Assembly (NCBI GenBank): GCA_019117065.1
Contig: DXAK01000049.1
Coordinates: forward strand, 1-64,000
DNA length: 64,000 nt
Direction: 5' to 3'
DNA from: Candidatus Mediterraneibacter pullicola
GTDB lineage: Bacteria; Bacillota; Clostridia; Lachnospirales; Lachnospiraceae
The notes under the pieces are model-generated. The model made no database searches. It was given only the letters and a program-made list of their open reading frames with translations, and was not told where the DNA came from. Position 1 is the first letter of the stretch; each line of letters opens with the position of its first letter. Made by a program: the position numbers and the translations under genes. Shown piece by piece: positions 42,079 through 63,779 of this stretch.

Positions 42079-43004
42079 AAAAGATCGCGACAAGAGACAG
42101 TTACGGAAATGCGCTGGCGCAGCTTGGAACAGAGCATGAGGACGTGGTTGTGCTGGACGCTGATTTAGCGGCAGCGACAAAGACCGGTGTGTTTAAGAAA
42201 GCGCATCCAGAGCGCTTCATTGACTGCGGGATCGCAGAGAGCAATATGATGGGCGTGGCGGCAGGTCTTGCGGCGGCGGGAAAGGTTCCATTCGCAAGCT
42301 CGTTTGCCATGTTTGCGGCGGGGCGTGCATTTGAGCAGGTGCGAAACTCTATCGGATATCCCCATCTTAACGTAAAGATCGGCGCTACCCATGCCGGAAT
42401 CTCTGTGGGCGAAGACGGGGCAACCCACCAGTGCAATGAGGATATCGCGCTAATGCGCACGATCCCGGGCATGGTTGTCATCAATCCGTCCGATGATGTA
42501 GAAGCACAGGCGGCGGTGCGCGCGGCATATGAGCATGAGGGACCGGTGTACTTAAGATTCGGGCGTCTTGCCGTTCCGGTTATCAACGATAAGCCGGATT
42601 ACAAATTTGAGCTTGGAAAAGGCGTTGTGTTAAGAGAAGGGAAAGACGTGACGGTCATCGCCACGGGTCTGCCGGTAAACAACTGCCTTGAGGCGGCAGA
42701 AAAGCTGGCGGCAGATGGCATCGATGCTAAAGTTATCAACATCCATACCATCAAACCTCTGGATGAGGAGCTGATTGTTTCGGCGGCAAAAGAGACAGGG
42801 AAAGTCGTTACAGTTGAGGAGCATTCCGTTATCGGCGGACTGGGAAGCGCAGTGTGTGAAGTGCTCTCAGAGAAAGCTCCGACACGGGTGCTCAAAATAG
42901 GCGTGAACGATACCTTCGGCGAATCGGGACCGGCGGCAGAGCTGCTGAAAAAATACGGGTTAGATACAGACAGTATTTACGAGAAAGTGAAAGCATTTGT
43001 GTAA
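42066..43004 (+). CDS. tktB: Transketolase, C-terminal subunit
   Basis: A 312-residue protein with the pyrimidine-binding and C-terminal domains of transketolase. It has the catalytic-Glu region (DCGIAESNMMGVAAGLA), GATHAGISVGEDGATHQ and the C-terminal strand VITVEEHS-like segment. It completes the active site with the N-terminal subunit. Its stop codon overlaps the first base of the dispersed element described next. Symbols tktA/tktB are used for the two halves and do not mean the E. coli isozymes. Confidence 0.95.
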   Translation: MSDVKKIATRDSYGNALAQLGTEHEDVVVLDADLAAATKTGVFKKAHPERFIDCGIAESNMMGVAAGLAAAGKVPFASSFAMFAAGRAFEQVRNSIGYPHLNVKIGATHAGISVGEDGATHQCNEDIALMRTIPGMVVINPSDDVEAQAAVRAAYEHEGPVYLRFGRLAVPVINDKPDYKFELGKGVVLREGKDVTVIATGLPVNNCLEAAEKLAADGIDAKVINIHTIKPLDEELIVSAAKETGKVVTVEEHSVIGGLGSAVCEVLSEKAPTRVLKIGVNDTFGESGPAAELLKKYGLDTDSIYEKVKAFV

Positions 43005-43364
43005 CAGTGTGGCTGTTGCAAAATACATCTTTCTTCCATAGATAGTATACCAAGAGTATTTTAAACTTTATTTTCCATAACATACGATATCCGCAGTCTA
43101 TGATTGCATCGCGGCTTCGGGGCCGCTGTGCTCTGCTTGCCGCTCACGCAACATAGACCTGCGGATATCTTGTTTTTTGGAAACGGAAATTTCAATATAC
43201 GCTTGGTTATTCCTCTGTATAAAAAAGATGAATTTGCACCAACACCCCACAACGACAGGTTCTTCCGATTGGTACACGTTACCGGAAACGGTTTTGCGAT
43301 AGGAGATACTCCGGGAACCTATACTACCACTAGGAAAAAGATGTATCTTGCAGCACCCCACTGT
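43004..43364. repeat. Dispersed TIR element, copy 1 (MITE-like)
   Basis: About 361 bp. The left end ACAGTG..TGTTGCAAAATACATCT and the inverted right end (AGATGTATCTTGCAGCACCCCACTGT read on plus) form imperfect terminal repeats of roughly 35 bp. A hairpin core at 43086-43169 has arms GATATCCGCAG..CTATG and CATAG..CTGCGGATATC. Copy 2 (52829-53158) matches it along both flanks and the core; copy 3 (63612-63779) matches the core and one flank in inverted orientation. No transposase is encoded. The rest of this 449-base gap, up to 43453, contains only the next gene's leader with AGCAGAGGTG. Confidence 0.85.
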
Positions 43365-43453
43365 TTTTGTCGAACTTATCTGACAGTAACTGATAAATTC
43401 AGCTATTTCCATGTGCTATGCTTAGGAAAAATTTTGAGCAGAGGTGAGTATAA

Positions 43454-44674
43454 ATGGAAAGACAGTTACCGAAAAATGTGCGTCAGATCGGCAATGTGAG
43501 CGACACGCCAAAGATTTATGTGGAGGATTATGTGGATACATTTTTTGCCCAGTTGTGCGAAAAATGTGAGAAGTCAGGGAAGGGCCCGATGGGAGCGTTC
43601 CTCGTGGGCGATATCCAGCAGGGAGACAATGAGGAATATGTATACATATATGGAGCGATTCAGATGCACGACCTAAAAATGTCGGGCAGCGAATATGTGC
43701 TGGATGAAGATACGTGGAAGCACGCATACGAGGACTGCAAACAATATTTTGAGGACGGGGAGATGTTAGGATGGTTTGTGGCGCACCCAGGAGTTCCGCT
43801 TATCCCGGATGCTTCCACGGTGAAGCTCCACAAGAAATCATTTCCCAAGAAAAACACCGTCTTTATTATGAAAGACCCGGTGGAAAAAGAAGAAACCTAC
43901 TATGTGCATAAAATGAATGATCTGATGGAGATTGGAGGGCATTACACGTATTACGAAAAAAATCCGTGTATGCAAAACTATATGATCTCCAGTCGAAAAA
44001 AAAATGGGGTATTTTCCACGGAGACTGTTGAGGACAGAGCTGCGAAGGACTTTCGTGATCTGGTTAGAAAACGGGGGGAGCGTCGAAAAGGAAGACAGAC
44101 AGGAAGTCTGATGTACGCGGCGGGTGCAGGGCTTGTGCTCGTGCTGCTTGTAATGGGTGTATCCTTAATCAATAGTTTTGACAGAATGAAGTCTGTACAG
44201 GATACGTTAAATGCCATCTCAGGAAATACAGACAGTATCGAAGCGCGGGAGACAAGCGGAACTGTGACTGCTGTGACCGAGGAGCAGGCGGGGAATGTGG
44301 TAGCCGGTGAGGGACAAGCCTCTGATAACGGGGAGGACAGCGATGCGAATAATTCGGATGTTGATAGTGGGGATTCAGCGGATGAGGCAGATCCGCAGGA
44401 TATAGATACCCCGGATACACAGGACGCAGACAAGACAGACGGGTCTGACAGCGCGGCAGGGACGGCACAAGGAACGGGAACGGATGGACAGGCCTCTGCT
44501 GTGTCAGGGGGGAACGGAAGCGACGGTGTATATATTGTGGAGGAAGGCGACACCCTTGCGATTATAAGCAGGAAAATGTACGGAGATCTCTCGCATGTAG
44601 ACGCGATCTGTAAGATGAACGGCATCGAAAACGGGAATTTGATTTATGTCGGACAAAAATTGCTATTACCATAA
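43454..44674 (+). CDS. MPN/JAMM-like domain protein with transmembrane helix and LysM
   Basis: A 406-residue protein. Residues ~20-180 resemble a JAB/MPN fold: GAFLVG strand, a YIYGAI strand and LGWFVAHPGVPLIPD in the place of the metal motif GWYHSHPG...S..D. The first His is replaced by Val, so metal binding is probably lost. A basic segment, a membrane helix (about 219-240), a ~115-residue Asp/Glu/Ser/Gly-rich linker and a C-terminal LysM (VYIVEEGDTLAIIS...LIYVGQKLLLP) follow. Topology predicts the MPN-like domain inside and LysM bound to peptidoglycan outside. The MPN call is my structural inference; the LysM is certain. Followed by two other membrane genes. Confidence 0.8.
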   Translation: MERQLPKNVRQIGNVSDTPKIYVEDYVDTFFAQLCEKCEKSGKGPMGAFLVGDIQQGDNEEYVYIYGAIQMHDLKMSGSEYVLDEDTWKHAYEDCKQYFEDGEMLGWFVAHPGVPLIPDASTVKLHKKSFPKKNTVFIMKDPVEKEETYYVHKMNDLMEIGGHYTYYEKNPCMQNYMISSRKKNGVFSTETVEDRAAKDFRDLVRKRGERRKGRQTGSLMYAAGAGLVLVLLVMGVSLINSFDRMKSVQDTLNAISGNTDSIEARETSGTVTAVTEEQAGNVVAGEGQASDNGEDSDANNSDVDSGDSADEADPQDIDTPDTQDADKTDGSDSAAGTAQGTGTDGQASAVSGGNGSDGVYIVEEGDTLAIISRKMYGDLSHVDAICKMNGIENGNLIYVGQKLLLP

Positions 44675-44744
44675 AATCATGGTACAATCATTGTGCAAAG
44701 CGTGATCCGCTATTTGTGTGAAAACCGAAAATAAGGGGAGTTAT

Positions 44745-45941
44745 ATGTCGCAAAAGAAAAAAACACGTTTTAAGATCCTGACATCCCCGGATGATCTAAG
44801 TGAGATAAAGAACAAAGTAAGAAGGTTCCGCCTTAGAAAACTGCGGAAGATACTTGTTCCGGCGGTACTTATTATCCTCGCCGCGTGCGGTACATATCTT
44901 CTTTTGAAGAATCAGACTTATGCTCAGGCACGGACGGCCCGGGAGTATGTTGCCGATATTTCAGATACGAGCAGTTATGCCCGCTTTGGGGATGGGATCA
45001 TCCGATATAACAGGGACGGGGTTGTTTACTTAAATAAAAAGAATGAAGAACAGTGGATACAGCCTGCGCAGATACAGAATCCGGTCATTGTTGTCAAGGA
45101 GAATGCGTTTGCCGTGGCTGACAATGGCGGAAACAATATTATGGTATTTACAGAGGAAGGGCTTAAAGGAGAGATAGAGACGACGCTTCCGATTGAGAAA
45201 ATCGCTATTTCCGATCAGGGAATTATCAGCGCGGTGTTAAGAGATGAAAACTCTCCGAAAATCATCTCTTATGACGCTACAGGAAATATCCTCGTAGAGC
45301 AGAAAACAACAGTGGGGACAACCGGATATCCGGCGGCGTTGGAGTTGTCGGGTGATGGCAGGCTGCTGGCAGTATCCTACCTGTATACGGAGGGAGCGGT
45401 GATCAAGTCCCGTGTAGTCTTTTATAATTTTGGCGAAACAGGGCAGGGGAAGCCAGATAATATTGTGTCGTCCGCTGAGTATGAGGACACTGTGGCGGCA
45501 GAGGTTTTCTTTATGGGCGAGGACCGCGCTGTTGTGGTGGGAGATAACCGTTTTATCATTTATAAGGGGAAGGAAGAGCCACAGAAGGAAAAGGAGATCA
45601 CAATCGATCAGGAGATACAGAGCGTTTTCCACTCGGATCAGTATATCGGATTTGTTCTTTTAAACAGGGATAAATCAGGGTATGAGGTCCGGCTGTATAA
45701 CCGCCTTGGAGAGCAGATTCTCAACAGACCGATTCCCGCAAAATATGATAATGTGAAGATGGATGGTGATGAGATTCTTATGTATGACGGGACAAGCTGT
45801 TGTATTGTGACAGCCACCGGCATTATCAAATTCAGCGGAGATATTAAGATTAACGCACTGGAAATGTTCCGCGCGCCGGGACTAAACAGATACTATGTGA
45901 TGAGCGTAGATGAATTAAGGATAATTTATCTGACGAAATAG
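44745..45941 (+). CDS. DUF5711-type membrane-anchored beta-propeller-like protein
   Basis: A 398-residue protein. A basic cytoplasmic start (about 1-45) and one membrane helix (about 46-64) are followed by a ~330-residue outer domain of repeated four-strand units (patterns such as NAFAVADNGGNNIMVF and RLLAVSYLY), suggesting a WD40/YncE-like propeller. I associate it with DUF5711 of Lachnospiraceae; function unknown. The start at 44745 follows AAGGGGAG. It lies between the MPN/LysM gene and cvpA-like gene on the same strand, so an envelope-related operon is likely. Confidence 0.75.
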   Translation: MSQKKKTRFKILTSPDDLSEIKNKVRRFRLRKLRKILVPAVLIILAACGTYLLLKNQTYAQARTAREYVADISDTSSYARFGDGIIRYNRDGVVYLNKKNEEQWIQPAQIQNPVIVVKENAFAVADNGGNNIMVFTEEGLKGEIETTLPIEKIAISDQGIISAVLRDENSPKIISYDATGNILVEQKTTVGTTGYPAALELSGDGRLLAVSYLYTEGAVIKSRVVFYNFGETGQGKPDNIVSSAEYEDTVAAEVFFMGEDRAVVVGDNRFIIYKGKEEPQKEKEITIDQEIQSVFHSDQYIGFVLLNRDKSGYEVRLYNRLGEQILNRPIPAKYDNVKMDGDEILMYDGTSCCIVTATGIIKFSGDIKINALEMFRAPGLNRYYVMSVDELRIIYLTK

Positions 45942-45949
45942 GAGACGCT

Positions 45950-46768
45950 ATGAATAATTGGCTTTTGATTATTGTTGCAACTATATTTATTATTTGTATA
46001 GTAGTAGGGTATATAAAAGGATTTTTAAAACTGGGGGTATCGTTGCTGTCGACAGTTGTGACACTTGTTTTGGTACTGTTCCTTTCCCCGTATGTGGCAG
46101 ACGCGCTGGTGAAATATACGCCTGTGGATGATTTTATCCAGAAGAAGGCCGTGGAATCGTTCATGCCTGATATTACGGACGAACAGCTTGCGCAGCTAGA
46201 TGTGGAGGGGACCCCGCTGGCAGAACTTAGCCGGGAGCAGCTTCAAAATCTTAATGATCTAGATTGGGAGATGTATGGGATCACAGCGGAAGATATCTTG
46301 AATATTATCGGGGAGATCCCGAAGGATATACAGATTAGCCAGATTGAGGACGCGTCTCTGCCGCAGTTTCTCAAGGATGAACTCATAGAAAATAATAACA
46401 ATACGATTTACTCAGAGCTGGGAGTGCAGAACTTTCCCCAGTATGTGGCGGCATATCTGTCAAGGCTGATTCTGAATCTGGTGTCATTCCTTGTAACATT
46501 CCTGCTGGCGATCATCATTGTCAAAGCGCTGATGTTCGCGGTGAATATTATCGGAGAGCTGCCGGTGCTTGGGATGATTAACCATATTGCAGGCGGCGCC
46601 CTTGGCCTTGTGTTGGCGGTTGTTGTTGTGTGGCTGGGATTTCTTGTTATGACGCTTGCTTACACGACGGAAGCTGGAACGGCGTGTTTTGAAATGGTAG
46701 AAAAAAGTACCATTCTGAGATTTCTATATGAGACAAACCCGCTGCTTATCTGGCTATTGGGATTTTAA
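45950..46768 (+). CDS. CvpA family membrane protein
   Basis: A 272-residue protein with four or five membrane segments. The first two (about 3-22 and 28-50) contain the family motif GYIKGFLKLGVSLLS, and the last two (about 180-240) complete the CvpA/colicin V production fold. A ~110-residue soluble loop lies between, longer than usual. CvpA proteins affect envelope and secretion phenotypes without a known biochemical role. It starts eight bases after the DUF5711 gene, with GGAGACG as ribosome site. Confidence 0.85.
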   Translation: MNNWLLIIVATIFIICIVVGYIKGFLKLGVSLLSTVVTLVLVLFLSPYVADALVKYTPVDDFIQKKAVESFMPDITDEQLAQLDVEGTPLAELSREQLQNLNDLDWEMYGITAEDILNIIGEIPKDIQISQIEDASLPQFLKDELIENNNNTIYSELGVQNFPQYVAAYLSRLILNLVSFLVTFLLAIIIVKALMFAVNIIGELPVLGMINHIAGGALGLVLAVVVVWLGFLVMTLAYTTEAGTACFEMVEKSTILRFLYETNPLLIWLLGF

Positions 46769-46784
46769 CGACATAAAAAATATG

Positions 46785-46813
46785 TTGACACTTTCCCGGG
46801 AATGTGGTATTTT
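46785..46813 (+). promoter_or_regulatory. Promoter of tRNA-Ala
   Basis: TTGACA (46785-46790), a 17-base spacer and TATTTT (46808-46813), 25 bases before the mature tRNA. Confidence 0.6.
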
Positions 46814-46837
46814 AAAAAAGTTCTCGGGAACATTTTT

Positions 46838-46910
46838 GGGGGATTAGCTCAGTTGGGAGAGCGCCTGCCTTGCAAGCAGGAGGTCACGAGTTCGACTCTC
46901 GTATTCTCCA
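46838..46910 (+). tRNA. tRNA-Ala (anticodon TGC)
   Basis: The acceptor arms GGGGGAT/ATTCTCC pair with two G-T wobbles. The D-arm begins TAGCTCAGTTGG. The anticodon stem CCTGC/GCAGG encloses CTTGCAA (anticodon TGC). The T-arm has TTCGACT. Discriminator A; no CCA encoded. It is outside any rRNA operon in this window. Confidence 0.97.
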
Positions 46911-46929
46911 TGTAAAACTTAAGCACTGC

Positions 46930-46993
46930 AAAAGAAAAGAAGGAAGTGTCTGTTCATGCTTGCATGAGGACAGACACTTGCTTCTTTTCTTTT
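46930..46993 (+). terminator. Long-stem terminator after tRNA-Ala
   Basis: AAAAGAAAAGAAG plus GAAGTGTCTGT pairs with ACAGACACTTG plus CTTCTTTTCTTTT, about 24 bp, with an inner CATGC/GCATG stem. The stem is much longer than a normal terminator but ends in a T-rich run 20 bases after the tRNA. Confidence 0.8.
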
Positions 46994-47221
46994 ATAGGGC
47001 GAAGCCCGTGAGCGAAAAAGGCAGAGCCTTTTGAGCTCGCAGCGCTTAAAAGAGTAAGCGCGGCCCGTGGGGGAAAAAGCCTATCATTTCAAACAGCTTT
47101 ACCACTCTTTTTCTATTGCCCGCCTTTTTATAACACGCTATAATTAGTGTAAAGTATACAGACGGATGGGGGCGTCTGCATTTCACACAGAGATACGGCA
47201 TACTACGGCAGGAAGGTACAG
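46994..47221. other. Non-coding stretch with a chain of small hairpins
   Basis: Between 46996 and 47088 short stems follow each other: GGGCgaaGCCC, AAAAGGCagaGCCTTTT enclosed by GAGC/GCTC, and GCGCTTaaaagagtAAGCGC. The remainder up to the next gene holds no open frame and only a ribosome site (AGGAAGG). It may be a repeated palindromic unit or a structured RNA. Confidence 0.5.
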
Positions 47222-48322
47222 ATGATGAAAAGATGTTCCCGGGGAGCGGCAGGAAACGGACAGAGTATAAAAATAAGGCTGGCGGCAGCAGCCAATTTGT
47301 TGATTTTGAGCGCCATACTTATGATAGCGGCAGCTAGGATCCCTAAGTTTGCCGAGTGGTATTCTGAGACGATATATTCTTTTCTGGTGGGGACTGTGGG
47401 AAGACTCTATGGGATATTTCCTTTTTCAGTGTCAGAGCTCTTTTTTTATATACTAATTTTAATGTTTTTTATATCGCTGGTTTTTGCCGTGATAAAAAGA
47501 AAGCGGGAGTTTTTTTTGGAGTGGCTGTCCGTGATTCTTCTAACGGCGGGGGTTCTCGTATTTCTCTATACTGTATGCTGCGGGATCAATTATCACAGAA
47601 AATCTTTTTCTGAGGAAGCGGGAATCGTAACATACACATATAGCGCGAATGAGCTGAGTGAGATCTGCGTCTGGCTGACAGAGGAGGTGAATTCGCTAGC
47701 TGGGGAAATAGAGCGGGATGGAGACGGCGTAATGAAATTAAGCGCCCCAGAGGGAGTGGGCGCTGTCAGCGCGATGCAGGCGTTGGCAGAAGATTTCCCC
47801 GAGCTTGAAGGTTACTATCCGTTGCCGAAAAAACTGATTATTTCTGAGCTATTATCCTATCAGAATTTGACGGGGATCTACTCGCCATTTACGGTGGAAG
47901 CTAATTATAATGGGGATATGACGGTTTATAATATCCCATTTACCGCATGTCATGAGCTGTCACATCTGCGGGGGTTCATGCAGGAGGAAGAGGCAAATTT
48001 TATCGCGTTTCTGGCATGTATCGGATCAGAGCGCGCAGATTTCAGATACAGCGGATATCTGTCAGGATGGATATATTGTATGAATACTTTATATCGGATC
48101 GACTACGAAAGCTGGAGCAGAATCCGTTCGCTTTTAGATAAAAAGGTGGAGAAGGATCTGGCGGCTAACAATGTATTTTGGGAGAAATACGAAGGAACGC
48201 TCGCGGAGATAACGGACAAGGTCAACGATACATATTTAAAAGTAAACGGTCAGGTGGACGGCGTGCAAAGTTATAACAGAATGGTGGATCTGATTGTGGC
48301 CTATTTCGGCAAAAAGTATTAG
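47222..48322 (+). CDS. DUF3810-type membrane protein with HExxH-like motif
   Basis: A 366-residue protein. Three membrane segments lie at about 23-42, 72-92 and 100-120, then a large extracytoplasmic domain. The motif CHELSHLRGF followed by EEEANFIAF at about 241-258 is a zinc-metallopeptidase HExxH...E pattern (HELSH). This matches DUF3810, a family with predicted but untested protease function. Two adjacent ATG codons (47222, 47225) are possible starts with AGGAAGG upstream. It lies 40 bases before a lipoprotein gene. Confidence 0.82.
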   Translation: MMKRCSRGAAGNGQSIKIRLAAAANLLILSAILMIAAARIPKFAEWYSETIYSFLVGTVGRLYGIFPFSVSELFFYILILMFFISLVFAVIKRKREFFLEWLSVILLTAGVLVFLYTVCCGINYHRKSFSEEAGIVTYTYSANELSEICVWLTEEVNSLAGEIERDGDGVMKLSAPEGVGAVSAMQALAEDFPELEGYYPLPKKLIISELLSYQNLTGIYSPFTVEANYNGDMTVYNIPFTACHELSHLRGFMQEEEANFIAFLACIGSERADFRYSGYLSGWIYCMNTLYRIDYESWSRIRSLLDKKVEKDLAANNVFWEKYEGTLAEITDKVNDTYLKVNGQVDGVQSYNRMVDLIVAYFGKKY

Positions 48323-48363
48323 GGCGTTTGCTTTATTGGAGAGGATAAAAGGAGGAAAAAAAT

Positions 48364-49170
48364 ATGAAAACACAAAGAAAGAAATGGACGGCGGCAGCAA
48401 TGGCGGCAGCAATGGCTGTGATGTCATTAACAGCATGCGGGACAAAGGCAACACCGGAGAATCTTTTCAGAGACATGAACAAACGCGCTTCGGAGGTGGA
48501 CTCCCTGCGTATGAACATGAAGCTGGATATGAACATTGAGGCGGCGGGAGAGAGCGTAAGCATGGGCATGGACTTTGCCATGGAGGCGACTTCAGATCCT
48601 GAGATGTCATCAGCAAAAGGCGTAGGCAGTGTTGGCTGGGGCGGTATTGATACGTCTACGGAGATCGAGACATATTCAGAAAAACAAGGCGATGAGTATA
48701 TTGTATACACAAAGAGTGAAAACGGCTGGACAGTGCAGAAGGAAGATTCCGCGGGGATGAGCACGGATATCGGAGTTGTATCGGAAGATATTGAGAAGTT
48801 TGCCAGCCAGTTCGAGCTGGACAAGAATCTTGTCCAGGTGAACGGAGAGGATTGTTTCCAGCTTACGGGAACCATTACGGGAGAGTTCCTGTCGGAATTT
48901 ATGGGAGAAGATATGCTAAGCTCCTTTGCAGGGTTAGGGCTGGATGAAGACGGGCTGGCTGATATAAGCATGCCGTGTACGATTGATGTGTATAAGGAGA
49001 GTATCCTGCCTGCGCGCATGACCTTTGACATGGGAGAAGCTCTTCTTCCGATCCTAGAGGCTGCCGGGCTGGATGCGGCAGAATGTACGGTGGAAATGAC
49101 ATTTCTGGACTATGATGCTGTAGGGGAAATTGTGATTCCTGAGGAAGCGCTGGAAGCCGCGGGATCATGA
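48364..49170 (+). CDS. Lipoprotein, LppX/DUF6612-like
   Basis: A 268-residue lipoprotein: signal helix with lipobox (SLTAC, Cys about residue 21). The mature domain is acidic and beta-strand rich and is introduced by a helical segment (NLFRDMNKRASEVDSLRMNMKLDMNIEA split around residue 40) typical of LolA/LppX-like folds that hold a lipid or other hydrophobic molecule. Family naming is tentative. AAAAGGAGG precedes the start. A terminator follows at 49231. Confidence 0.72.
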   Translation: MKTQRKKWTAAAMAAAMAVMSLTACGTKATPENLFRDMNKRASEVDSLRMNMKLDMNIEAAGESVSMGMDFAMEATSDPEMSSAKGVGSVGWGGIDTSTEIETYSEKQGDEYIVYTKSENGWTVQKEDSAGMSTDIGVVSEDIEKFASQFELDKNLVQVNGEDCFQLTGTITGEFLSEFMGEDMLSSFAGLGLDEDGLADISMPCTIDVYKESILPARMTFDMGEALLPILEAAGLDAAECTVEMTFLDYDAVGEIVIPEEALEAAGS

Positions 49171-49230
49171 CAGATGGGGAGACAGGGCTTATAGAGAGTG
49201 TATATATTACATGCTTTGAGTAAGGATGAC

Positions 49231-49265
49231 AAGGGGGATGATGTAAAATCGTCTCCCCTCTTTTT
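49231..49265 (+). terminator. Terminator after the lipoprotein gene
   Basis: The stem AGGGGGATGAT / ATCGTCTCCCCT with a TAAA-type loop is followed by CTTTTT. Confidence 0.78.
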
Positions 49266-49285
49266 CGCTTTCAAGATTTATGTAT

Positions 49286-51717: not shown

Positions 51718-51818
51718 GTCGAAACCGCAAGACAGCCCGCAGGTACATGATTATTACGGCAGAAGCACCCGCTGTGATTCATGGATTATTATTAGGAAGA
51801 CAGAGAGGGATAGATAAA

Positions 51819-52811
51819 ATGAATTTAAAAGGACGAAACTTTCTGACACTGAAAGACTTTACGCCGGAAGAGATTATTTATCTTCTGGATCTCGCTGCTG
51901 ATTTGAAGGATAAGAAGAAAAAAGGCGTTCCTGTCGATCACTGGCGAGGGAGAAATGTGGCCCTGCTCTTTGAGAAAGACAGCACGCGCACCCGCTGTGC
52001 ATTTGAGGTCGCTGCCCATGATATGGGAATGGGGACAACCTATCTTGGCCCAACAGGATCCCAGATGGGAAAAAAAGAGAGCATTGAAGATACTGCGAGA
52101 GTGCTGGGCCGTATGTACGACGGCATTGAGTACCGCGGCTTTGGTCAGGAGATCGTCGAGGAGCTTGCAAAGAATGCGGGCGTTCCAGTGTGGAATGGCC
52201 TGACAAACGAGTATCATCCGACGCAGATGCTGGCGGATATGCTGACGATTCGTGAAAACTTTGGGAAGCTAGAAGGGCTGAAGCTGGTCTACATGGGCGA
52301 CGCCCGCTATAATATGGGAAATTCCCTCATGATTGCATGTACAAAGCTGGGGCTTCATTTTGTCGCTTGTACGACAGAAGACTATTTCCCCAACGAAGAA
52401 CTGGTTGAGGAATGCCGCAAGTACGCGGAAGAATCGGGCGGGTCAGTGACACTTGCTTGCGATGTCCAAGAGGGAACAAAGGATGCCGATATCATTTACA
52501 CGGATGTATGGGTATCTATGGGAGAGCCGGATGAAGTGTGGGAGAAACGGATCCGGGAGCTGACGCCGTACAAGGTCACGAAAGATGTGATGGCGAATGC
52601 GAAGAAGGACGCTATCTTCCTGCATTGCCTGCCCGCTTTCCATGATCTGAAGACAAAGATCGGAAAAGAGATGGGAGAGAGGTTTGGCATCACAGATATG
52701 GAAGTGACCGATGAAGTGTTTGAATCTGCACAGTCTAAAGTGTTTGATGAAGCAGAGAACAGAATGCACACGATCAAGGCGGTTATGGCGGCGACGCTGG
52801 GGATGGATTAG
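51819..52811 (+). CDS. argF: Ornithine carbamoyltransferase
   Basis: A 330-residue transferase that makes citrulline from ornithine and carbamoyl phosphate. The carbamoyl-phosphate motif STRTR (about residue 57), the HPTQ motif ([12 protein letters not shown]), the ornithine-binding SMGE and the HCLPAFHD catalytic Cys motif are complete. The start at 51819 is the ATG with AGAGGGA upstream. Whether it is anabolic or catabolic (arginine deiminase pathway) cannot be decided; no arcA or arcC is adjacent. A dispersed element lies between it and the convergent map gene. Confidence 0.96.
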
Positions 52812-52828: not shown

Positions 52829-53158
52829 ACTTTTGTAAAATACACCTTTCTTCTACAGATAACCTGCTAAGAGTATTTTAAACTTTATTTTCCATAACAT
52901 ATGATGTCCGCAGTCTGTGACTGCATCGCGGTTTCGACGCTATTAAGCGATGCCGGCCGCTCATGCAGCATAGTACTGCGGATATCTTGTCTTTCTTCTT
53001 ATGTTGTCCTGCGTCCTTTTGGCATGACCGCAGTTTTTCTTTCGGTAATAGTTTTCTTATATCCGCCCAGATCTTTGAAGTAGAGCGGAATGGTTTTGTG
53101 ATAGAACCCACCCCGGCAATATATACTATCTCTGGAAGAAAAATATATTTTGCACCTC
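52829..53158. repeat. Dispersed TIR element, copy 2 (MITE-like)
   Basis: About 330 bp, filling the gap between the convergent argF and map genes. The left end TTGTAAAATACACCTTTCTTC and the right end (GGAAGAAAAATATATTTTGCAC) are imperfect inverted repeats. The first ~75 bases match copy 1 nearly base for base, including AAGAGTATTTTAAACTTTA. The hairpin core at 52903-52986 is 84 bases long, like copy 1. The middle right part differs more, but the last ~70 bases align again. No gene is encoded. Confidence 0.85.
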
Positions 53159-53161
53159 AGC

Positions 53162-54025
53162 TTATTTTGTCAGTACTTCGATCCCGTCCTCCTTTACGAG
53201 CACCATATACTCGATCTGTGCGGAAAGTCCGTCGTCGATGGTGTATACGGTCCATCCGTTATCTTCGTCAACAAAGAAATCAGGGCTCCCCTCGTTGATC
53301 ATCGGTTCGATGGTGAACATCATACCCGGTACAAGAAGCATCTCGCTTCCTTTGGGTGTTACATAACTCACGAAAGGATCTTCATGGAATGCAAGTCCGA
53401 TGCCATGTCCGCCAATTTCTTCAACTACTGAGTATCCGTTTGCTTTGGCATGGCTGTTGATGGCCTCTGCGATATCGCCAAGATGCCCCCACGGTTTGGC
53501 AGCGGCGAGTCCGCGCTCTACGCACTCTTCCGTAACGCGGATGAGGCGCTCCGCCCGTTGGGAGATCTTACCCATTTTGAACATACGGGACGCATCCGAA
53601 AAATAACCATCAAGAATTGTGGACACATCTACGTTAATAATATCTCCTTCATGAAGAATGATATTTTCATCAGGAATGCCGTGGCATATTTCATTATTAA
53701 GAGAAGTACATACGCTCTTTGGAAAGCCCTGATAGTCAAGGGGGGCGGGAATACCGCCGTGTTCGACCGTGAAGTCGTAAACGATCTTGTCAATCTCCGC
53801 TGTGCTCATGCCGACGCGGATATGTTTTGCCACTTCGTCCAGAACGGCTGTGTTAAGAGACGCGCTTTTTCTGATCATCTCAATCTGCGCGGGGGTCTTG
53901 AGCAGATCGCGTGTAGGTACAATTTCTCCTCTCTCCTTGTGAAGAAGTATTTTTTCTTCAATGGGCATGTGGCATTTTTTATATTTTTTGCCGCTCCCGC
54001 ACCAGCAAAGGTCATTTCTTTCCAT
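53162..54025 (-). CDS. map: Methionine aminopeptidase with N-terminal SEC-C zinc motif
   Basis: A 287-residue type I methionine aminopeptidase that removes the initiator Met. Metal ligands are present: Asp in INVDVSTIL, Asp in YFSDASRMF, His in IGGHGIGLAFHED, Glu in FTIEPM and Glu in AQIEYM. Residues 1-20 form a SEC-C zinc motif (CWCGSGKKYKKCH), found fused to Map in many clostridia and thought to aid ribosome binding. The start at 54025 has AGAGGAG at good spacing; an ATG three codons upstream is too close. Its stop lies at the edge of dispersed element copy 2. Confidence 0.97.
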   Translation of the reverse strand: MERNDLCWCGSGKKYKKCHMPIEEKILLHKERGEIVPTRDLLKTPAQIEMIRKSASLNTAVLDEVAKHIRVGMSTAEIDKIVYDFTVEHGGIPAPLDYQGFPKSVCTSLNNEICHGIPDENIILHEGDIINVDVSTILDGYFSDASRMFKMGKISQRAERLIRVTEECVERGLAAAKPWGHLGDIAEAINSHAKANGYSVVEEIGGHGIGLAFHEDPFVSYVTPKGSEMLLVPGMMFTIEPMINEGSPDFFVDEDNGWTVYTIDDGLSAQIEYMVLVKEDGIEVLTK

Positions 54026-54045
54026 GAATAACATCTCCTCTAATT

Positions 54046-56625: not shown

Positions 56626-57192
56626 ATGAAGAAAAATCTTATTTTTATAGGCATGCCCGCGGTCGGAAAGAGCACGGTCGGCATTGTGGTGGCGAAAAGA
56701 CTCGGTATGCGGTTTATCGATACGGACCTTCTTATTCAAGAGCAGGAAGGCAAGTTGCTAAGAGAGATCATTGCCGAGTCAGGGGTGGACGAATTCCTAG
56801 AGATTGAGAATCGGGTGAATGCGTCTGTGAAGGCTCAGAATGCCGTTATCTCACCGGGGGGAAGCGTGGTCTACTGTAAAGAAGCCATGGAACATTTTAA
56901 AAAGATTGGAACGGTCGTATATTTAAAAGTTTCTTATCAGACAATAAAGAGGCGGATACGTAATCCGAAAAAGAGGGGCGTTGTGCTGCGTGAAGGGCAG
57001 ACTTTTAAGGATCTGTACAACGAGCGCGTCCCGTATTTTGAAAAGTATGCGGACATTACAGTGTGCGAGGATGGATGCCGTATTGAGGAAACTATAGAAA
57101 ATGTTTTGAAAGCGGTAAAAAAACGCGGGAATAGGGCGAGAAGAAGGCGCAGATTCCCAAAGAACTTGACAATCAGTCAGGATTCAAAGTAA
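56626..57192 (+). CDS. Shikimate-kinase-like P-loop kinase
   Basis: A 188-residue P-loop kinase of shikimate-kinase type. The Walker A GMPAVGKST (9-17), the DTD motif near residue 33, a lid with KKRGVVLREGQ and the ERVPYFEKYAD C-terminal motif are clear. Two substrate-site features of genuine AroK differ: the FRxxE motif that gives the shikimate-binding Arg reads FLEIE, and GGG reads PGGS. The C-terminus is extended by a basic tail (RARRRRRF). Either shikimate is bound differently or the substrate is another polyol. No other aromatic biosynthesis genes are nearby. Confidence 0.8.
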   Translation: MKKNLIFIGMPAVGKSTVGIVVAKRLGMRFIDTDLLIQEQEGKLLREIIAESGVDEFLEIENRVNASVKAQNAVISPGGSVVYCKEAMEHFKKIGTVVYLKVSYQTIKRRIRNPKKRGVVLREGQTFKDLYNERVPYFEKYADITVCEDGCRIEETIENVLKAVKKRGNRARRRRRFPKNLTISQDSK

Positions 57193-57272
57193 AATAGGGA
57201 TTTGGAAAAGGCTGAATAGATGAGACGGAAAATACAGATTATGATAAAATAGAATCTAAATCGAGGTGCGAA

Positions 57273-58565
57273 ATGGAACAATATATCATCAAAGGCGGGA
57301 ATCCGCTTGTAGGCGAGGTTGAGATCGGAGGCGCGAAGAACGCGGCTCTTGCAATTCTCGCAGCAGCGATTATGACAGATGAGACAGTTCTGATCGACAA
57401 TCTGCCGGATGTCAATGATGTAAATGTAATGTTGGAAGCGATCAGCGGGATCGGAGCCATGGTACAGCGCATCGATAGACACACCGTGAAGATCAACGGC
57501 AGCACGATCGGTGATTTTAATATCGAATATGACTATATTAAGAAGATCCGTGCGTCTTACTATCTGCTTGGCGCCCTGCTTGGAAAGTATAGGCGTGCTG
57601 AGGTTGCGCTGCCCGGCGGATGCAATATTGGGAGCAGACCCATCGACCAGCATTTGAAAGGTTTCCGCGCCCTTGGAGCGGACGTGGATATCGAGCATGG
57701 TAAGATCGTAGCCGAGTCGGAGAAGCTTAGAGGGACCCATCTGTATTTTGATGTAGTGTCTGTGGGAGCGACGATCAATGTGATGATGGCGGCGGCAATG
57801 GCTGACGGCATGACTATCATGGAAAACGTGGCAAAAGAGCCTCATGTGGTTGATGTGGCAAACTTTTTAAACAGCATGGGAGCGAACATCAGGGGAGCAG
57901 GAACGGATGTGATCAAAATCCGGGGCGTTAGATCCCTTCATAAGACAGAATACTCCATTATTCCAGATCAGATCGAGGCGGGGACGTTCATGTTCGCCGC
58001 CGCGGCGACAAAGGGAGATATCACGGTGATGAACGTGATTCCGAAGCATTTGGATGCAACGATCTCAAAACTGGTGGATATTGGGTGCGAGGTTGAGGAG
58101 TTTGACGACGCGGTCCGCGTGGTCGCAAAAGGAAGGCTTTGCAGTACGCAGGTTAAGACGCTTCCTTACCCGGGATACCCGACAGATATGCAGCCGCAGA
58201 TCGGGGTAGCTCTTGCGCTTGCAAACGGAACAAGTACCATTACGGAGAGTATCTTTGAGAATCGTTTTAAATATCTCGGTGAACTGGCCCGCATGGGCGC
58301 TCAGGTCAAGGTAGAGGGAAACTCTGCCACTATAGAAGGCGTGGAGAAATTCTCGGCAGCCCGGGTGAGTGCTCCGGACTTAAGGGCGGGAGCGGCACTG
58401 TGTATCGCGGGACTTGCGGCAGAAGGCATCACGATTGTGGATGATATCGTATATATCCAGAGAGGCTACGAGCGGTTCGAAGAGAAATTAAGAAGCCTTG
58501 GCGGCATGATTGAGAAAGTCACCAGTGAAAAGGACATTCAGAAGTTCAAGTTGAAAGTGGGCTGA
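57273..58565 (+). CDS. murA: UDP-N-acetylglucosamine 1-carboxyvinyltransferase
   Basis: A 430-residue EPSP-synthase-fold enzyme that adds enolpyruvate to UDP-GlcNAc, the first committed step of peptidoglycan synthesis in the cytoplasm. The active-site Cys (about residue 117) lies in LPGGCNIGSRPID, the Lys-Asn pair in GAKNAAL, and the RAGAALCIAGL and DDIVYIQRGYERFEEKL segments close the protein. Because the Cys is present, fosfomycin sensitivity is expected. Many Firmicutes have two murA genes; which copy this is cannot be told. It ends in a terminator. Confidence 0.96.
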   Translation: MEQYIIKGGNPLVGEVEIGGAKNAALAILAAAIMTDETVLIDNLPDVNDVNVMLEAISGIGAMVQRIDRHTVKINGSTIGDFNIEYDYIKKIRASYYLLGALLGKYRRAEVALPGGCNIGSRPIDQHLKGFRALGADVDIEHGKIVAESEKLRGTHLYFDVVSVGATINVMMAAAMADGMTIMENVAKEPHVVDVANFLNSMGANIRGAGTDVIKIRGVRSLHKTEYSIIPDQIEAGTFMFAAAATKGDITVMNVIPKHLDATISKLVDIGCEVEEFDDAVRVVAKGRLCSTQVKTLPYPGYPTDMQPQIGVALALANGTSTITESIFENRFKYLGELARMGAQVKVEGNSATIEGVEKFSAARVSAPDLRAGAALCIAGLAAEGITIVDDIVYIQRGYERFEEKLRSLGGMIEKVTSEKDIQKFKLKVG

Positions 58566-58588
58566 TCATAGAATAGGCAGAAGATTTA

Positions 58589-58617
58589 GGCAGGACAGAA
58601 TACGGTCCTGCCCTTCT
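58589..58617 (+). terminator. Terminator after murA
   Basis: The stem GGCAGGAC / GTCCTGCC (58589-58596 with 58605-58612) is followed by CTTCTTAT; the T-run is weak. Confidence 0.6.
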
Positions 58618-58655
58618 TATATCGTAAGTGAGATACACAAGGAGCACAAAAGAGG

Positions 58656-60194
58656 ATGGAGACGAACAGATACGACAGGAAAAAGCGGGAAGAGCTGCGC
58701 CGCAGGCGGCGGCTTCAGGTGCGCCGCCAGATCACGCTGCTGGCGGGAGCGGGAGTATTGGCTGTGGCAGCGTCTGCGGTTATTATTGCCAGAATATGGC
58801 AGGGAAACCGCGCGGAAGATGTAAAGGTTGTGATCGCATCTGGGTATGAGCAGTTTCTAAGTGAGGCCATCTCTGTGGATGAGACAGCGGAGGCGCCTGA
58901 TGCAGGCAGCGCAAAAGAAACTGCTGCCATGAATGACACGGAAGGGGCGGAATTGTCAGGGGAACAGGGTTGCGCATTTGCCCAGTGGATATCAGAACAG
59001 TATCCGGAAGCTATGCGAACAGGGTTGCCTGAGGCTGTCTTGGACGGCACCTTTACTTCGGATGATGCTTACCATGTTCTGGGACAGACGCTTCATGTTC
59101 TCTCAGACAGGTATCAGGGAAAACTAAAGAACGCTGATACAGCAAGGAAATATGGCATTTATGTAAAAGACAGGGAAATTCCCGGAACCGCTGCCGGTGA
59201 AAGTGCGGACAGCGGAGAAAAAGCAGAAGGCCGGCCAGTCAGGATCAGCGTGGCAGGGGACCTCTGTCTGGAGGAGGATGGATTTGTTCTGGATAAATAT
59301 GATGAGGTTCAAGACCTAGAGCAGTGCATTTCTCCAGAGGTTTTAGAAACCGTCCGGAGCGCGGATATCTTCTACTTGAATCATGAATACACGGTGAGTG
59401 AGAGAGGAGAACCTCTGGAAGGGAAATATTATACCTTCCGGGCAAAGCCAGAGCGCATGGCGCTTCTGGAAGAGATGGGAACGGATCTGGTATCTCTTGC
59501 AAATAATCATATCTACGATTATGGGGAAGAAGCCATGGTGGATACGATGGATTATCTTAAGGAGGCGGGTATCCCTTATGTGGGAGGCGGACGTGATCTT
59601 AAGGAGGCGGAGAGACCTTCCTACTTTATTGTAAACGGCATGAAAATTGGTTTCGTTGCTGCAAGCAATGCGGAAAAGATTCATTATACACCTTCGGCGG
59701 GGGAAAGCTCGGCGGGGATACTCGAAGCTTATGATACAGCATTGTTTAGCCAAGTGATACAAAAGGCGTCAAAAGAGTGCGATTATCTGATCGCATATAT
59801 ACATTGGGGGCCTGAGGATGAGAACCAGTATGCTGCCTATCAGACCAAACAAGGCAAAGAATTTTTGGATTCTGGGGCAGATATTGTGGTCGGAGGGCAT
59901 CCTCATGTGCTTCAGGGAATCGAATACATAGACGGCAAACCAGTCGTATACAGTATGGGAGATTTCTGGTTTAATGACGAGACAAAATATACGGGACTTC
60001 TCAACCTTGAGATTTCCCCGGAAGGTCTTGAGAAGATGTGGTTTACACCTTGTCTGCAGACCGGGCTGACCACTCAGTATATAAGCGGCGCTCAGAAACA
60101 GAGGGAAATGTACGATTTTCTTCAGGGATTATCCCCAAACGCGCAGATAGACGATGAGGGTGTTATCACGGAAAATCAGAGAATACTCTATTAA
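58656..60194 (+). CDS. CapA family (PGA_cap) metallophosphatase-like protein
   Basis: A 512-residue protein with a very basic start, one membrane helix (about 27-47) and a ~140-residue linker/helical domain. A CapA domain follows (about 195-460). Motifs typical of the calcineurin-like CapA fold are VAGDLCLEE, FYLNHEYTVSE, SLANNHIYDYG, IHWGPEDENQY and VGGHPHVLQG. CapA proteins take part in polyglutamate capsule synthesis in Bacillus, but most homologues lie outside capsule loci and their function is open. No capBC genes are here. The ribosome site (AAGAGG) is modest. A separate promoter for metK follows. Confidence 0.88.
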   Translation: METNRYDRKKREELRRRRRLQVRRQITLLAGAGVLAVAASAVIIARIWQGNRAEDVKVVIASGYEQFLSEAISVDETAEAPDAGSAKETAAMNDTEGAELSGEQGCAFAQWISEQYPEAMRTGLPEAVLDGTFTSDDAYHVLGQTLHVLSDRYQGKLKNADTARKYGIYVKDREIPGTAAGESADSGEKAEGRPVRISVAGDLCLEEDGFVLDKYDEVQDLEQCISPEVLETVRSADIFYLNHEYTVSERGEPLEGKYYTFRAKPERMALLEEMGTDLVSLANNHIYDYGEEAMVDTMDYLKEAGIPYVGGGRDLKEAERPSYFIVNGMKIGFVAASNAEKIHYTPSAGESSAGILEAYDTALFSQVIQKASKECDYLIAYIHWGPEDENQYAAYQTKQGKEFLDSGADIVVGGHPHVLQGIEYIDGKPVVYSMGDFWFNDETKYTGLLNLEISPEGLEKMWFTPCLQTGLTTQYISGAQKQREMYDFLQGLSPNAQIDDEGVITENQRILY

Positions 60195-60221
60195 AGGAAA
60201 ATGAAAAAACGCGAAAGGGTA

Positions 60222-60250
60222 TTGACATTTTTTTATTTCCAATGTAAAGT
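60222..60250 (+). promoter_or_regulatory. Promoter of the SAM-controlled metK unit
   Basis: TTGACA (60222-60227), a 17-base spacer and TAAAGT (60245-60250), upstream of the SAM-I riboswitch. Confidence 0.6.
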
Positions 60251-60283
60251 CATGTACTGGAACAAATTAAACAACAAGACTTT

Positions 60284-60434
60284 CTCTTATTCAGAGCAGT
60301 GGAGATACAAAGGATCTGTGAAGCTGCGGCAACCCCTTATCCGTATAAGGAAGGTGCCAACCTGAGCGAGTGATCGAACAATAAGAGGATTGTTAAGATA
60401 GATTGACAGTCCGCTTATGCGGGCTGTTTCTTAT
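60284..60434 (+). promoter_or_regulatory. SAM-I (S-box) riboswitch with terminator
   Basis: The closing stem CTCTTAT(T) / (A)ATAAGAG (60284-60291 with 60380-60387) encloses the S-box core: CAGAGCAGTGGAG, a GATCTGTGAAGC kink-turn segment, the invariant GCGGCAACC and the AAGGTGCCAACCTG stem. Downstream, ACAGTCCGC ttat GCGGGCTGT followed by TTTCTT (60406-60432) is the regulated terminator, and AACAAT/ATTGTT next to the closing stem may take part in switching. With S-adenosylmethionine bound, metK is turned off. Confidence 0.96.
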
Positions 60435-60535
60435 ATCATAGGAAAGCGCTATGATATAAAAAGTACTCTATTCTAGAAATCCGAAAGAGAAAGTTATGCC
60501 GCGGCAGATGCGGCGGTTCAAGGAAAGGAGATATG

Positions 60536-61723
60536 ATGGATAAGTTATTATTTACGTCAGAATCAGTGACAGAAGGACACCCAGACAAGATGTGCGATCA
60601 GATCTCAGACGCTATACTGGATGCGCTGATGGAGCAGGATCCCATGAGCCGTGTGGCATGTGAGACATGCTGTACTACAGGAATGGTGATGGTCATGGGA
60701 GAGATCACAACAAACGCATATGTAGATATTCCAAAGATTGTTCGTCATACAGTGCGTGAGATCGGATATACAAGAGGGAAATATGGCTTTGATGCAGATA
60801 CATGCGGGGTGATTACCACGATTGACGAGCAGTCGGCGGATATTGCTCTAGGAGTTGACAAGGCCCTTGAAGCGAAAGAACATAAGATGTCAGAGAATGA
60901 TATTGAGGCAATCGGAGCAGGGGATCAGGGAATGATGTTCGGATATGCGTCCGATGAGACGGAGGAGTACATGCCCTACCCCATCGCCATGGCGCACAAG
61001 CTTGCCCGCCGGCTGACAGAAATTAGGAAGGATGGGACACTTCCTTATCTCAGGCCTGATGGAAAGACACAGGTGACGGTAGAGTACGATGAGGAAGGTA
61101 TCCCGAAGCGGCTGGACGCTGTTGTACTTTCCACACAGCACGACCCGGAAGTGTCACAGGAGCAGATCCATGCAGATATTGAGAAATATGTATTTGACGC
61201 CGTGCTTCCGGCGGACATGGTGGACAGCGAGACAAAGTTCTTCATCAACCCGACAGGGCGCTTCGTGATCGGCGGGCCTCATGGGGACAGCGGATTGACA
61301 GGGCGTAAGATCATTGTAGACACTTACGGCGGTATGGCACGCCACGGCGGCGGCGCATTCTCTGGGAAGGACTGTACGAAGGTAGACCGCTCCGCGGCGT
61401 ATGCGGCACGTTACGCGGCAAAGAATATCGTGGCGGCAGGGCTCGCGAAGAAGTGCGAGATCCAGCTTTCCTATGCCATCGGAGTGGCGCAGCCCACGTC
61501 CATATCTGTGGATACATTCGGCACGGGAAAAGTGTCTGATAATCAGCTGGTCGAGATTGTGAGGGAGAATTTCGACCTTCGACCGGCGGGAATTATCCGC
61601 ATGCTGGATCTGCGCAGACCGATCTATAAGCAGACAGCAGCTTACGGGCATTTCGGCCGTCATGATCTGGATCTTCCGTGGGAGCGGCTGGACAAGGCTG
61701 ACGATCTGAAAAAATATTTATAA
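60536..61723 (+). CDS. metK: S-adenosylmethionine synthetase
   Basis: A 395-residue enzyme that makes SAM from methionine and ATP. Signatures [28 protein letters not shown] and [23 protein letters not shown] are all intact, and length is typical. The second of two adjacent ATGs (60536) has better spacing from AAGGAG. The SAM-I riboswitch in the leader gives feedback control by its product. A low-GC terminator follows. Confidence 0.98.
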
Positions 61724-61741
61724 AAAATAGAGAATAAAGGG

Positions 61742-61795
61742 AAGTCATTTTAAAGTGATAAAAAATAAAGAAAAATCATTTTAAAATGACTTTTT
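61742..61795 (+). terminator. Terminator of metK
   Basis: The stem AAGTCATTTTAAA / TTTAAAATGACTT (13 bp, 24-base A-rich loop) is followed by TTTCTT. Confidence 0.7.
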
Positions 61796-61871
61796 CTTGA
61801 AAAAAATTATATTTCTGCTACTCTATACATAACTTCGGAGATTGGATTTTAAGAAGAGAAAGGAGCATCCT

Positions 61872-62927
61872 ATGAAGCTCAGAACGAAACTTATTATTGT
61901 ATTTGCCTCTGTTATGATCCTGCCGGGTACATTTACCTCTGTGGCGATGAAGACATTCGCGCCGGAGCGTGTAAATGAAATGCAGCAAGTGTATCTCACC
62001 GCGGTCTTCCTGACTACGGGGCTTCTTGTATATTGGATCTACCGGAGTATCTCAGTGCCTCTGGCAAAGCTGCAAAAAGCAGCGCGCAACATCCGAGAGG
62101 GGAATCTAGATTTTGAGATTCATCAGGAGTCGGAAGACGAGATTGGCCAGCTATGTCAGGATTTTGAGGAGATGCGCTTAAGGCTGAAGGCAAACGCAGA
62201 GGAGAAGGTGGCGTTTGACCGGGAGAACAAAGAGCTTATCAGCAATATTTCCCATGATCTTAAGACCCCTATTACGGCAATCAAAGGCTATGTGGAGGGG
62301 ATTATGGACGGGGTGGCGGACACGCCGGAAAAGATGGACAGATATATCAAGACAATATATAATAAAGCTAATGAGATGGACCTTCTTATCAATGAACTGA
62401 CACTTTACTCTAAGATCGACACGAACAGGATCCCATATAATTTCGCCACCATATCGGCGAGAGATTATTTTGAGGACTGTGCGGAAGATCTCCACATGGA
62501 GCTGGAGTCAAAGGGAGTGGATTTCTCCTACCGCAATACTATGGAGGAGGACGCTAAGGTGATCGTAGATCCCGAACAGCTTCGAAGGGTCATCAACAAC
62601 ATCGTGTCTAATTCCCTGAAATATATGGACAAGCCGAAAGGCAGAGTCACGATGGAGCTAAAGGATGTGGGAGATTTCATTCAGATAGAGCTGGGCGATA
62701 ACGGGAAAGGAATCGCCGCCAAAGATCTTCCGTATATCTTCGACCGCTTCTACCGTACCGACGCTTCTAGGAATTCTTCCAAAGGCGGCAGCGGCATCGG
62801 TCTTTCGATCGTGAAGAAGATCGTCGAGGAGCACGGCGGCAATATCTGGGCGACCAGTGAAGAGGGCGCTGGTACGACAATGTATTTTGTAATAAGAAAA
62901 TATCAGGAGGTACCGATTGATGAGTAA
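61872..62927 (+). CDS. Sensor histidine kinase with HAMP domain
   Basis: A 351-residue kinase. Two membrane segments (about 7-27 and 40-58) flank a very short outer loop of about a dozen residues, then a HAMP domain (about 55-110), HisKA with ISHDLKTPITAIKGYV, an N-box (NNIVSNSLKYM) and G-boxes (GDNGKGI, GGSGIGLSIV). The small loop suggests sensing inside or near the membrane. The start at 61872 follows AAAGGAG. Unusually the kinase precedes its regulator; the two overlap by eight bases (ATGAGTAA). It follows metK after its terminator, so it has a separate transcript. Confidence 0.92.
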   Translation: MKLRTKLIIVFASVMILPGTFTSVAMKTFAPERVNEMQQVYLTAVFLTTGLLVYWIYRSISVPLAKLQKAARNIREGNLDFEIHQESEDEIGQLCQDFEEMRLRLKANAEEKVAFDRENKELISNISHDLKTPITAIKGYVEGIMDGVADTPEKMDRYIKTIYNKANEMDLLINELTLYSKIDTNRIPYNFATISARDYFEDCAEDLHMELESKGVDFSYRNTMEEDAKVIVDPEQLRRVINNIVSNSLKYMDKPKGRVTMELKDVGDFIQIELGDNGKGIAAKDLPYIFDRFYRTDASRNSSKGGSGIGLSIVKKIVEEHGGNIWATSEEGAGTTMYFVIRKYQEVPIDE

Positions 62928-63612
62928 GCGTATTCTGATTGTAGAAGACGAGGAAAGTATTGCGGATCTGGAGAAAGATTATCTGGAACTGAGTAATTTC
63001 GAGGTGGAAGTGGCAAATGACGGAAATATGGGATTGCAGAAAGGACTTGGAGAAGACTTTGATCTGATTATCCTTGACTTGATGCTGCCCGGTGTGGATG
63101 GGTTTGAGATCTGCCGCCAGATCAGGGATCAGAAAAACACTCCCATTATCATGGTGTCGGCTAAAAAAGACGACATTGACAAGATTAGAGGTCTTGGACT
63201 GGGAGCTGACGATTATATGACAAAACCATTCAGCCCCAGTGAATTAGTTGCGAGGGTAAAGGCGCATCTTGCCCGTTATGAGAGACTGATTGGAAGCAAT
63301 GTAGAGGAGAACGAAGTCATTGAGATCCGCGGTCTGAGGATAGACACTACTGCGAGACGTGTGTGGGTAGGAGGAGAGGAACGCTCATTTACGACAAAGG
63401 AGTTCGATCTGCTGTCATTTCTTGCGAGGCATCCGAATCATGTGTACACGAAGGAAGAGCTATTCCGGGAGATCTGGGATATGGAATCCATTGGAGATAT
63501 CGCCACCGTTACGGTGCATATTAAGAAGATAAGAGAGAAGATCGAGTATGACACATCCCATCCTCAGTATATTGAGACCATATGGGGAGTGGGATACCGA
63601 TTTAAAGTATAG
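62920..63612 (+). CDS. OmpR/PhoB family response regulator
   Basis: A 230-residue regulator. The receiver domain (about 1-120) has the acidic pair in VEDEE, phospho-Asp in IILDLMLPGVDG, the Ser in MVSAK and the Lys of MTKPFSP. A winged helix (about 130-228) ends in IETIWGVGYRFKV. The ATG at 62920 was chosen over a TTG one codon earlier because AGGAGG is at a suitable distance. It is partnered with the preceding kinase. Its stop codon abuts a copy of the dispersed hairpin element. Nearby K+ transporter genes are sometimes two-component targets, but no link is shown. Confidence 0.93.
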   Translation: MSKRILIVEDEESIADLEKDYLELSNFEVEVANDGNMGLQKGLGEDFDLIILDLMLPGVDGFEICRQIRDQKNTPIIMVSAKKDDIDKIRGLGLGADDYMTKPFSPSELVARVKAHLARYERLIGSNVEENEVIEIRGLRIDTTARRVWVGGEERSFTTKEFDLLSFLARHPNHVYTKEELFREIWDMESIGDIATVTVHIKKIREKIEYDTSHPQYIETIWGVGYRFKV

Positions 63613-63779
63613 CTGTTGTGGAAGATATCCACAGAACTATGTTGCGTGAACCGCAAGCAGGGCGCAGCGACCCTAAAGCCGTCATGTAATCACAGTTCTG
63701 TGGATATCTTATGTTATGGCAGGCGAAGCTCCCAATATTCTCCATCGGTTATCTGTATAAAAAAATATATTTTACAACG
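63612..63779. repeat. Dispersed TIR element, copy 3 (partial, inverted)
   Basis: About 168 bp, starting at the last base of the response regulator stop. A short GCTGTTG remnant is joined directly to the hairpin core (63624-63708, 85 bases; arms GATATCCACAGAAC and GTTCTGTGGATATC). After the core come ATGTTATGG and GGTTATCTGTATAAAAAAATATATTTTACAAC, matching the left flank of copies 1 and 2 in inverted orientation. The other ~180-base arm is missing, so this copy is deleted. Confidence 0.8.

Follow-up and report, generated by a model that had tools for sequence, protein, structure and literature searches.

Dispersed tail-to-tail hairpin modules at gene 3' ends in Mediterraneibacter, a candidate terminator-like repeat

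REP and REPIN sequences, which go with RAYT, are extragenic palindromes, as are the repeats described here. The kinds nearest to these repeats are SPRITE and BOX, both known from the pneumococcus (PMC3049150). The excerpted text of that article presents SPRITE as dispersed and gene-free, with a hairpin and a T-rich tract, lying near 3' ends and enriched between convergent genes; it records no established target duplication and proposes co-option as terminators. BOX is presented there as a modular composite repeat with structured RNA, terminal inverted repeats and no transposase of its own. The repeats of the present study resemble the two in these respects. They were found in a window of 64,000 nucleotides from Candidatus Mediterraneibacter pullicola (contig DXAK01000049.1, positions 1 to 64,000), which is the whole stretch analysed. 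A sequence-only reading of this window had described three copies of a MITE-like element that encodes no protein and sits at the 3' ends of genes. The repeat family is real and larger than first noted. The "MITE" is made up of two structured modules. Module A is the hairpin seen in the window. Module B, a 186-nt hairpin that had been overlooked, is found more widely and covaries more strongly than A. Both modules follow one plan, an AT-rich leader of about 30 nt, then a long hairpin (about 84 nt in A, about 186 nt in B), then a T-rich tail.

All three window copies are recovered by a covariance model of module A, with matches at 43066-43189 (+, 138.2 bits), 52883-53006 (+, 104.6 bits) and 63604-63728 (-, 88.3 bits). 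The model was built from 34 sequences that include copies 1 and 2 and leave out copy 3. As had been claimed, each copy lies at a gene 3' end; the preceding ORFs stop at 43004, 52811 and 63612, and their Pfam matches (transketolase, Asp/Orn carbamoyltransferase and response regulator) agree with the genes named. The conserved end AAAATAC begins 15 nt past the first stop in copy 1 and 25 nt past the second in copy 2. Module A of copy 1 (43013..43250, +) retains both arms, with the leader from ~43017, the hairpin core at ~43086-43169 and the second arm to ~43245. It is sense to the transketolase ORF 42066-43004. In copy 2, module A (52830..53006, +; leader from ~52834, hairpin core ~52903-52986) is sense to the carbamoyltransferase ORF 51747-52811. 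Both copies terminate in shrunken remnants of module B with an outer leader. The remnant of copy 1 (43256..43363, B sense strand minus) is seen in BLAST matches at 43256-43287 and 43287-43351 and weakly by the B model (E 0.009). That of copy 2 (53054..53153, minus strand; B model E 1.2e-12) is sense to the convergent ORF 53162-54034(-), a peptidase M24 by Pfam, and the copy finishes 10 nt short of the stop of this ORF. Copy 3 (63604..63779, minus strand, hairpin core ~63625-63708) is a reversed module A that has lost its left arm. It is antisense to the response-regulator ORF 62917-63612 and thus an exception to the sense-strand rule described below. A possible further B remnant, the inner hairpin only, lies at 4660..4720 (+, 18.8 bits, E 0.0094) between ORFs 3737-4486(-) and 4779-5495(-).

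RNA folding gave -83.4 kcal/mol for copy 1 (z -9.1) and -57.8 kcal/mol for copy 2 (z -6.4), and for each copy 0 of 200 shuffles did as well. No gene-like ORF was recognised over the copies, in line with the protein-free description; a few ORFs of 104-131 aa in the mechanical ORF list overlap them and were judged on their look. No Rfam 15 covariance model matched A or B, either in the window at the gathering threshold or in four A and/or B loci at E up to 1, and a search of the open-access literature found no description of these repeats. Among other structured features of the window, Rfam places a TPP riboswitch at 5487-5594 (minus strand) and a SAM riboswitch at 60284-60387 (plus strand). A 31-nt inverted repeat, 87% complementary with a 16-nt spacer, is found at 46923-47000, just behind tRNA-Ala (46837-46911).

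Many copies per genome had been predicted, and many were found. Copy 1 has 34 BLAST matches in its own genome (G000), which include reverse-strand self-matches of the same palindrome. The A model gives 56 two-strand matches there, counted as 29 distinct loci. Just past the window end, on the window's contig, lies another A locus with a weak score of 50.6 bits (G000:C27:66801-66922). Module A occurs in 10 of 58 congeneric genomes, with 29 loci in G000, at least 35 in G015, 6 in G021, 2 in G012 and 1 or 2 in each of the other six. Module B occurs in 45 of the 58 under strict filters (E to 0.001) and in 34 by BLAST. Outside the genus, B was seen in only 2 of 249 sampled genera, in one genome each, with the loops kept and the stems different. 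Most records bearing the B motif are titled as Mediterraneibacter from chicken gut; a few carry the labels Lachnoclostridium, Ruminococcus or Lachnospiraceae. A first A-core pattern had no match among the genome contigs searched. Carriage of B by viruses was considered and rejected, as viral contigs gave no exact match to the B motif. Two variants were also observed. G028 (one contig, 2.7 Mb) has at least 45 B-model matches with a best E of only 1.5e-21; its copies would be a large, more distant B subfamily. In G021, two loci (L313, L316) carry A-type hairpins with other stems, enclosed by inverted repeats with CTTTGTC/GACAAAG-like ends (by eye).

The fullest element of the clade, seen in L002, L033 and eight others, measures 511-526 bp between conserved ends and reads leader, module A, linker, opposite-facing module B, leader. 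In other members of the genus, B is found without A, singly or as tail-to-tail pairs; in L088 such a B pair is contained in 580 bp bounded by inverted ends of this same type. The largest unit, of about 510-580 bp, is thus two modules set tail-to-tail. Across elements the length between ends varies from 217 to 526 bp, and L282 is reduced to little beyond two leaders back to back. Paired inverted ends AAAATACATCTTTCTTATACAGATAA are present in many copies. The ends align at AAAATACATC, and the 5-6 bases beyond it differ between copies. All 20 two-module units, 15 A-B and 5 B-B, face tail-to-tail. Because of this invariant arrangement, the "terminal inverted repeats" are better read as two leaders, one for each of the facing RNA modules.

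The repeats are dispersed. One unit with an identical linker was found at unrelated loci of G015, G000 and G012. Empty orthologous sites, proposed earlier as a check, exist: behind tkt, read by eye in 30 species, the element is missing in 28, and versions of it are present in G000 and G015. The element-free tkt sites hold a RAYT-type palindrome in eight species and another short hairpin in others. On the 3' side of the carbamoyltransferase gene, again in 30 species, the full element is found only in G000 and a bare A core in G077; the other 28 have no element within the stretch read, of up to 257 nt, which in G017 was ended by the contig end. Some positions are shared: A-type hairpins lie at common positions in G077 and G078 and in G069 and G009, and G021 and G015 share one behind a gene ending EKLF or EKLL, as judged from the upstream codons.

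An ordinary family of decayed MITEs, once moved by a transposase recognising TGCAAAATACATCTTTCTTATACAGATAA and surviving at 3' ends since insertions elsewhere are harmful, with functionless hairpins, would explain the inverted ends, the lack of a gene, the dispersal and the linker identity. The family is indeed short, non-coding, bounded by inverted repeats and present in many copies. The excerpted PMC3049150 also reports that pneumococcal repeats and IS elements are enriched between convergent genes. Target-site duplications are another mark of MITEs, and the earlier reading had proposed to define them. None is seen above chance: direct repeats of 3-9 bp do not exceed the expectation from other pairs in the 22 elements that retain both outer ends, nor in 29 elements when some internal ends are included. 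The end pattern is present in only 3 of 58 genomes, where the loci read are A/B elements or remnants, while B is present in 45. Loops that are kept while stems change sequence, and a strand preference, also speak against functionless hairpins. No transposase-carrying element with shared ends was found among the loci read, in which some of the ends were inspected. We consider a decayed MITE family rather unlikely. The MITE-like traits of the first description (no transposase, dispersal, inverted ends, copy number, presence in relatives, gene 3' ends) hold, and a standard MITE is not supported. Inverted B pairs 1-6 kb apart were also considered as ends of large transposons and rejected. No transposase-like pattern was recognised in the ORF lists and repeats of L081, L084 and L085 or in the repeats of L082, L083 and L087; in L081 each B lies behind the stop of its own ORF.

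Palindromes of REP/REPIN type could instead be moved by a RAYT (Y1 transposase), and Y1_Tnp matches are present in 49 of the 58 genomes, the window genome included. None of 20 Y1_Tnp loci examined holds A or B, and B occurs in draft genomes with no detected Y1_Tnp, such as G065, G072, G074 and G078. The RAYT-like gene of the window genome has another palindrome, CGGGGACGTAGTAAAAT...ATTTTACTACGTCCCCG, on both sides. With a different REP beside the RAYT of the genus, RAYT was rejected as the mobiliser of A and B, and this origin is very improbable. The gene in question is single (L259, G000:C12:14000-18500; ORF 1623-2447, minus strand; 274 aa, Y1_Tnp match), and its flanking palindrome is the one found behind tkt in eight congeneric genomes.

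In both hairpins the loops are conserved and the stems vary in sequence and covary. For module B, 55 copies were aligned and RNAalifold gave a hairpin of 64 pairs. Of the alignment cells, 96.0% are paired, and 47 of the 64 pairs are altered on both sides, including all 20 pairs of the outer stem. The covariation score is 0.523, compared with 0.175 for shuffles and 0.076-0.116 for slid partners; since these very sequences gave the structure, it has an advantage over slid versions on cells paired. Covariation of A among close species is modest, at 6 of 25 pairs. Across ten genomes (22 sequences) both-sided changes are seen in 14 of 18 predicted pairs, with stems that include GATATCCGCAG, GATGCCCACCG and AATCCCCTCTG. 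Within a copy, the arms resemble each other more than arms taken from different copies do (27.6 vs 24.8; 0 of 5000 permutations), which fits either an RNA function or template switching or conversion. In a DNA palindrome, covariation can also be obtained through these last two processes, and by itself it is therefore no proof of RNA function. The tails differ in strength. T is found in 27-32 of 34 copies of A at six of seven positions after the stem, and at 35-87% over ten tail positions of B. The tail is thus strong in A and weaker in B, where it is a poor one for an intrinsic terminator.

The conserved loops raise the question of a binding partner. The modules may act post-transcriptionally: a protein or RNA would recognise the loop motifs and protect, process or localise the 3' end, with termination as a secondary effect. 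The near invariance of internal-loop strings of B, such as AAGTGAGAG and CTTTGAGGTA, is consistent with this. So is the motif that A and B have in common, CGCTCTAC followed by CGCTC(T)CAC on the sense strand of each. However, this motif is borderline, as 48 of 1000 shuffles equal it; in G000 copies its first part is often CTCTACTTG or CTCTGCTTG, and the partner is hypothetical. A mainly post-transcriptional role is unlikely. A broader proposal is that A and B together make up a single new class of structured RNA in 3' UTRs, with different folds and a common paired loop motif (CGCUCUAC ... CGCUC(U)CAC) for a putative partner after stop codons. The class would spread in tail-to-tail form, as a gene-end cassette that works in both directions and replaces native terminators. 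The shared motif suggests such a common partner, borderline as it is. We put this unified class forward as possible but doubtful.

A sense ORF ends just upstream in 57 of 63 evaluable copies of A and 54 of 66 of B, leaving 6 and 12 copies without one. Copies with only a sense ORF outnumber those with only an antisense ORF by 35 to 2 for A and 42 to 6 for B. These counts come from an ORF heuristic, in which overlapping ORFs were removed and an ORF of at least 80 aa had to end -30 to 150 nt from the hairpin, at loci chosen because they matched. Five of 68 A copies too near an edge and 11 edge occurrences of B were left out. Because the copies share descent, p-values on the strand counts would overstate. 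Such a preference relative to the upstream gene is not expected of passive insertion. It is a better argument for an RNA role than covariation, although it rests on the heuristic and on copies of common descent. Of 37 A loci entered, 35 had a recognised core; among these 19 are convergent, 14 tandem (11 forward), 1 called divergent and 1 undetermined. As a baseline, the window has 57 pairs of neighbouring ORFs, of which 5 are convergent, and one of these 5 holds copy 2. The element ends abut stop codons. In convergent pairs the distances on the two sides are 25 and 10 nt in L006, 5 and 5 in L280 and -2 and 11 in L040. Often both convergent stops lie no more than about 25 nt from the element, so that another terminator would have little room.

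Termination is judged the likeliest role of the modules because of the sense strand, the place behind the stop, the long hairpin, the T-rich tail and the little room left otherwise. We lean, by a modest preference, towards non-autonomous dispersed repeats of Mediterraneibacter whose working part is a structured RNA module behind the stop codon, a terminator-like gene end. The mRNA would enter the module through the leader, the hairpin would fold and the transcript would be ended or protected, so the repeat would act as a large terminator-like gene end. A tail-to-tail unit would fit between convergent genes and block transcription from either side, which would make its insertion harmless or useful. 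Movement would depend on a mobiliser supplied from elsewhere. Copy number, structure, covariation, tail-to-tail pairing and 3'-end position are observed directly, sense orientation is backed by an ORF heuristic, and transcription, termination and movement are inferred. The idea that elements as a rule inserted into native terminator loops was rejected, as flank complementarity is not beyond chance (permutation p 0.23 in 34 rows, 0.27 in the 22 with both outer ends). Such insertion is a possibility at single sites that resemble it: tkt (AACAGTGTGG...CCCCACTGTTTTT), L003, L033 and L282.

The repeats thus look like mobile or once-mobile gene-end signals. If this is right, they are a gene-end part belonging to an RNA family without an Rfam match, which in common gut bacteria occupies the 3' ends of tens of genes per genome. 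The tkt orthologues, which have ordinary hairpins in most species and the element in two, would form a natural series for terminator replacement. They would also test whether a selfish repeat persists by doing a terminator's job.

Comparison with known systems places A and B closest to the pneumococcal repeats. Palindromic structured-RNA candidates in PMC8040213 are likewise mostly terminator-like and from gut bacteria; the examples named in the excerpted text, to which this comparison applies, are in Bacteroidetes, and overlap is possible. REPs measure 20-40 bp according to partial source text and in this genus flank RAYT, whereas the A and B hairpins are far longer and were absent from the 20 Y1_Tnp loci examined. 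BOX, compared by its description in the excerpted PMC3049150, is built as boxA-boxB(n)-boxC with target duplications, whereas A and B are self-contained hairpins that face each other at 3' ends. SPRITE belongs to another genus and, in the same excerpted text, consists of a simple duplex of 18 bp that has AAAA/TTTT at its ends; set apart by description only, A and B differ in their two long modules, conserved internal loops, ~30-nt leaders and tail-to-tail pairing. In kind, not in sequence family, A and B agree with SPRITE and BOX: a dispersed hairpin with a T-rich tract, near 3' ends and enriched between convergent genes. The best reading is a dispersed repeat, non-autonomous and of the BOX/SPRITE kind, with hairpins that would serve as gene-end terminators.
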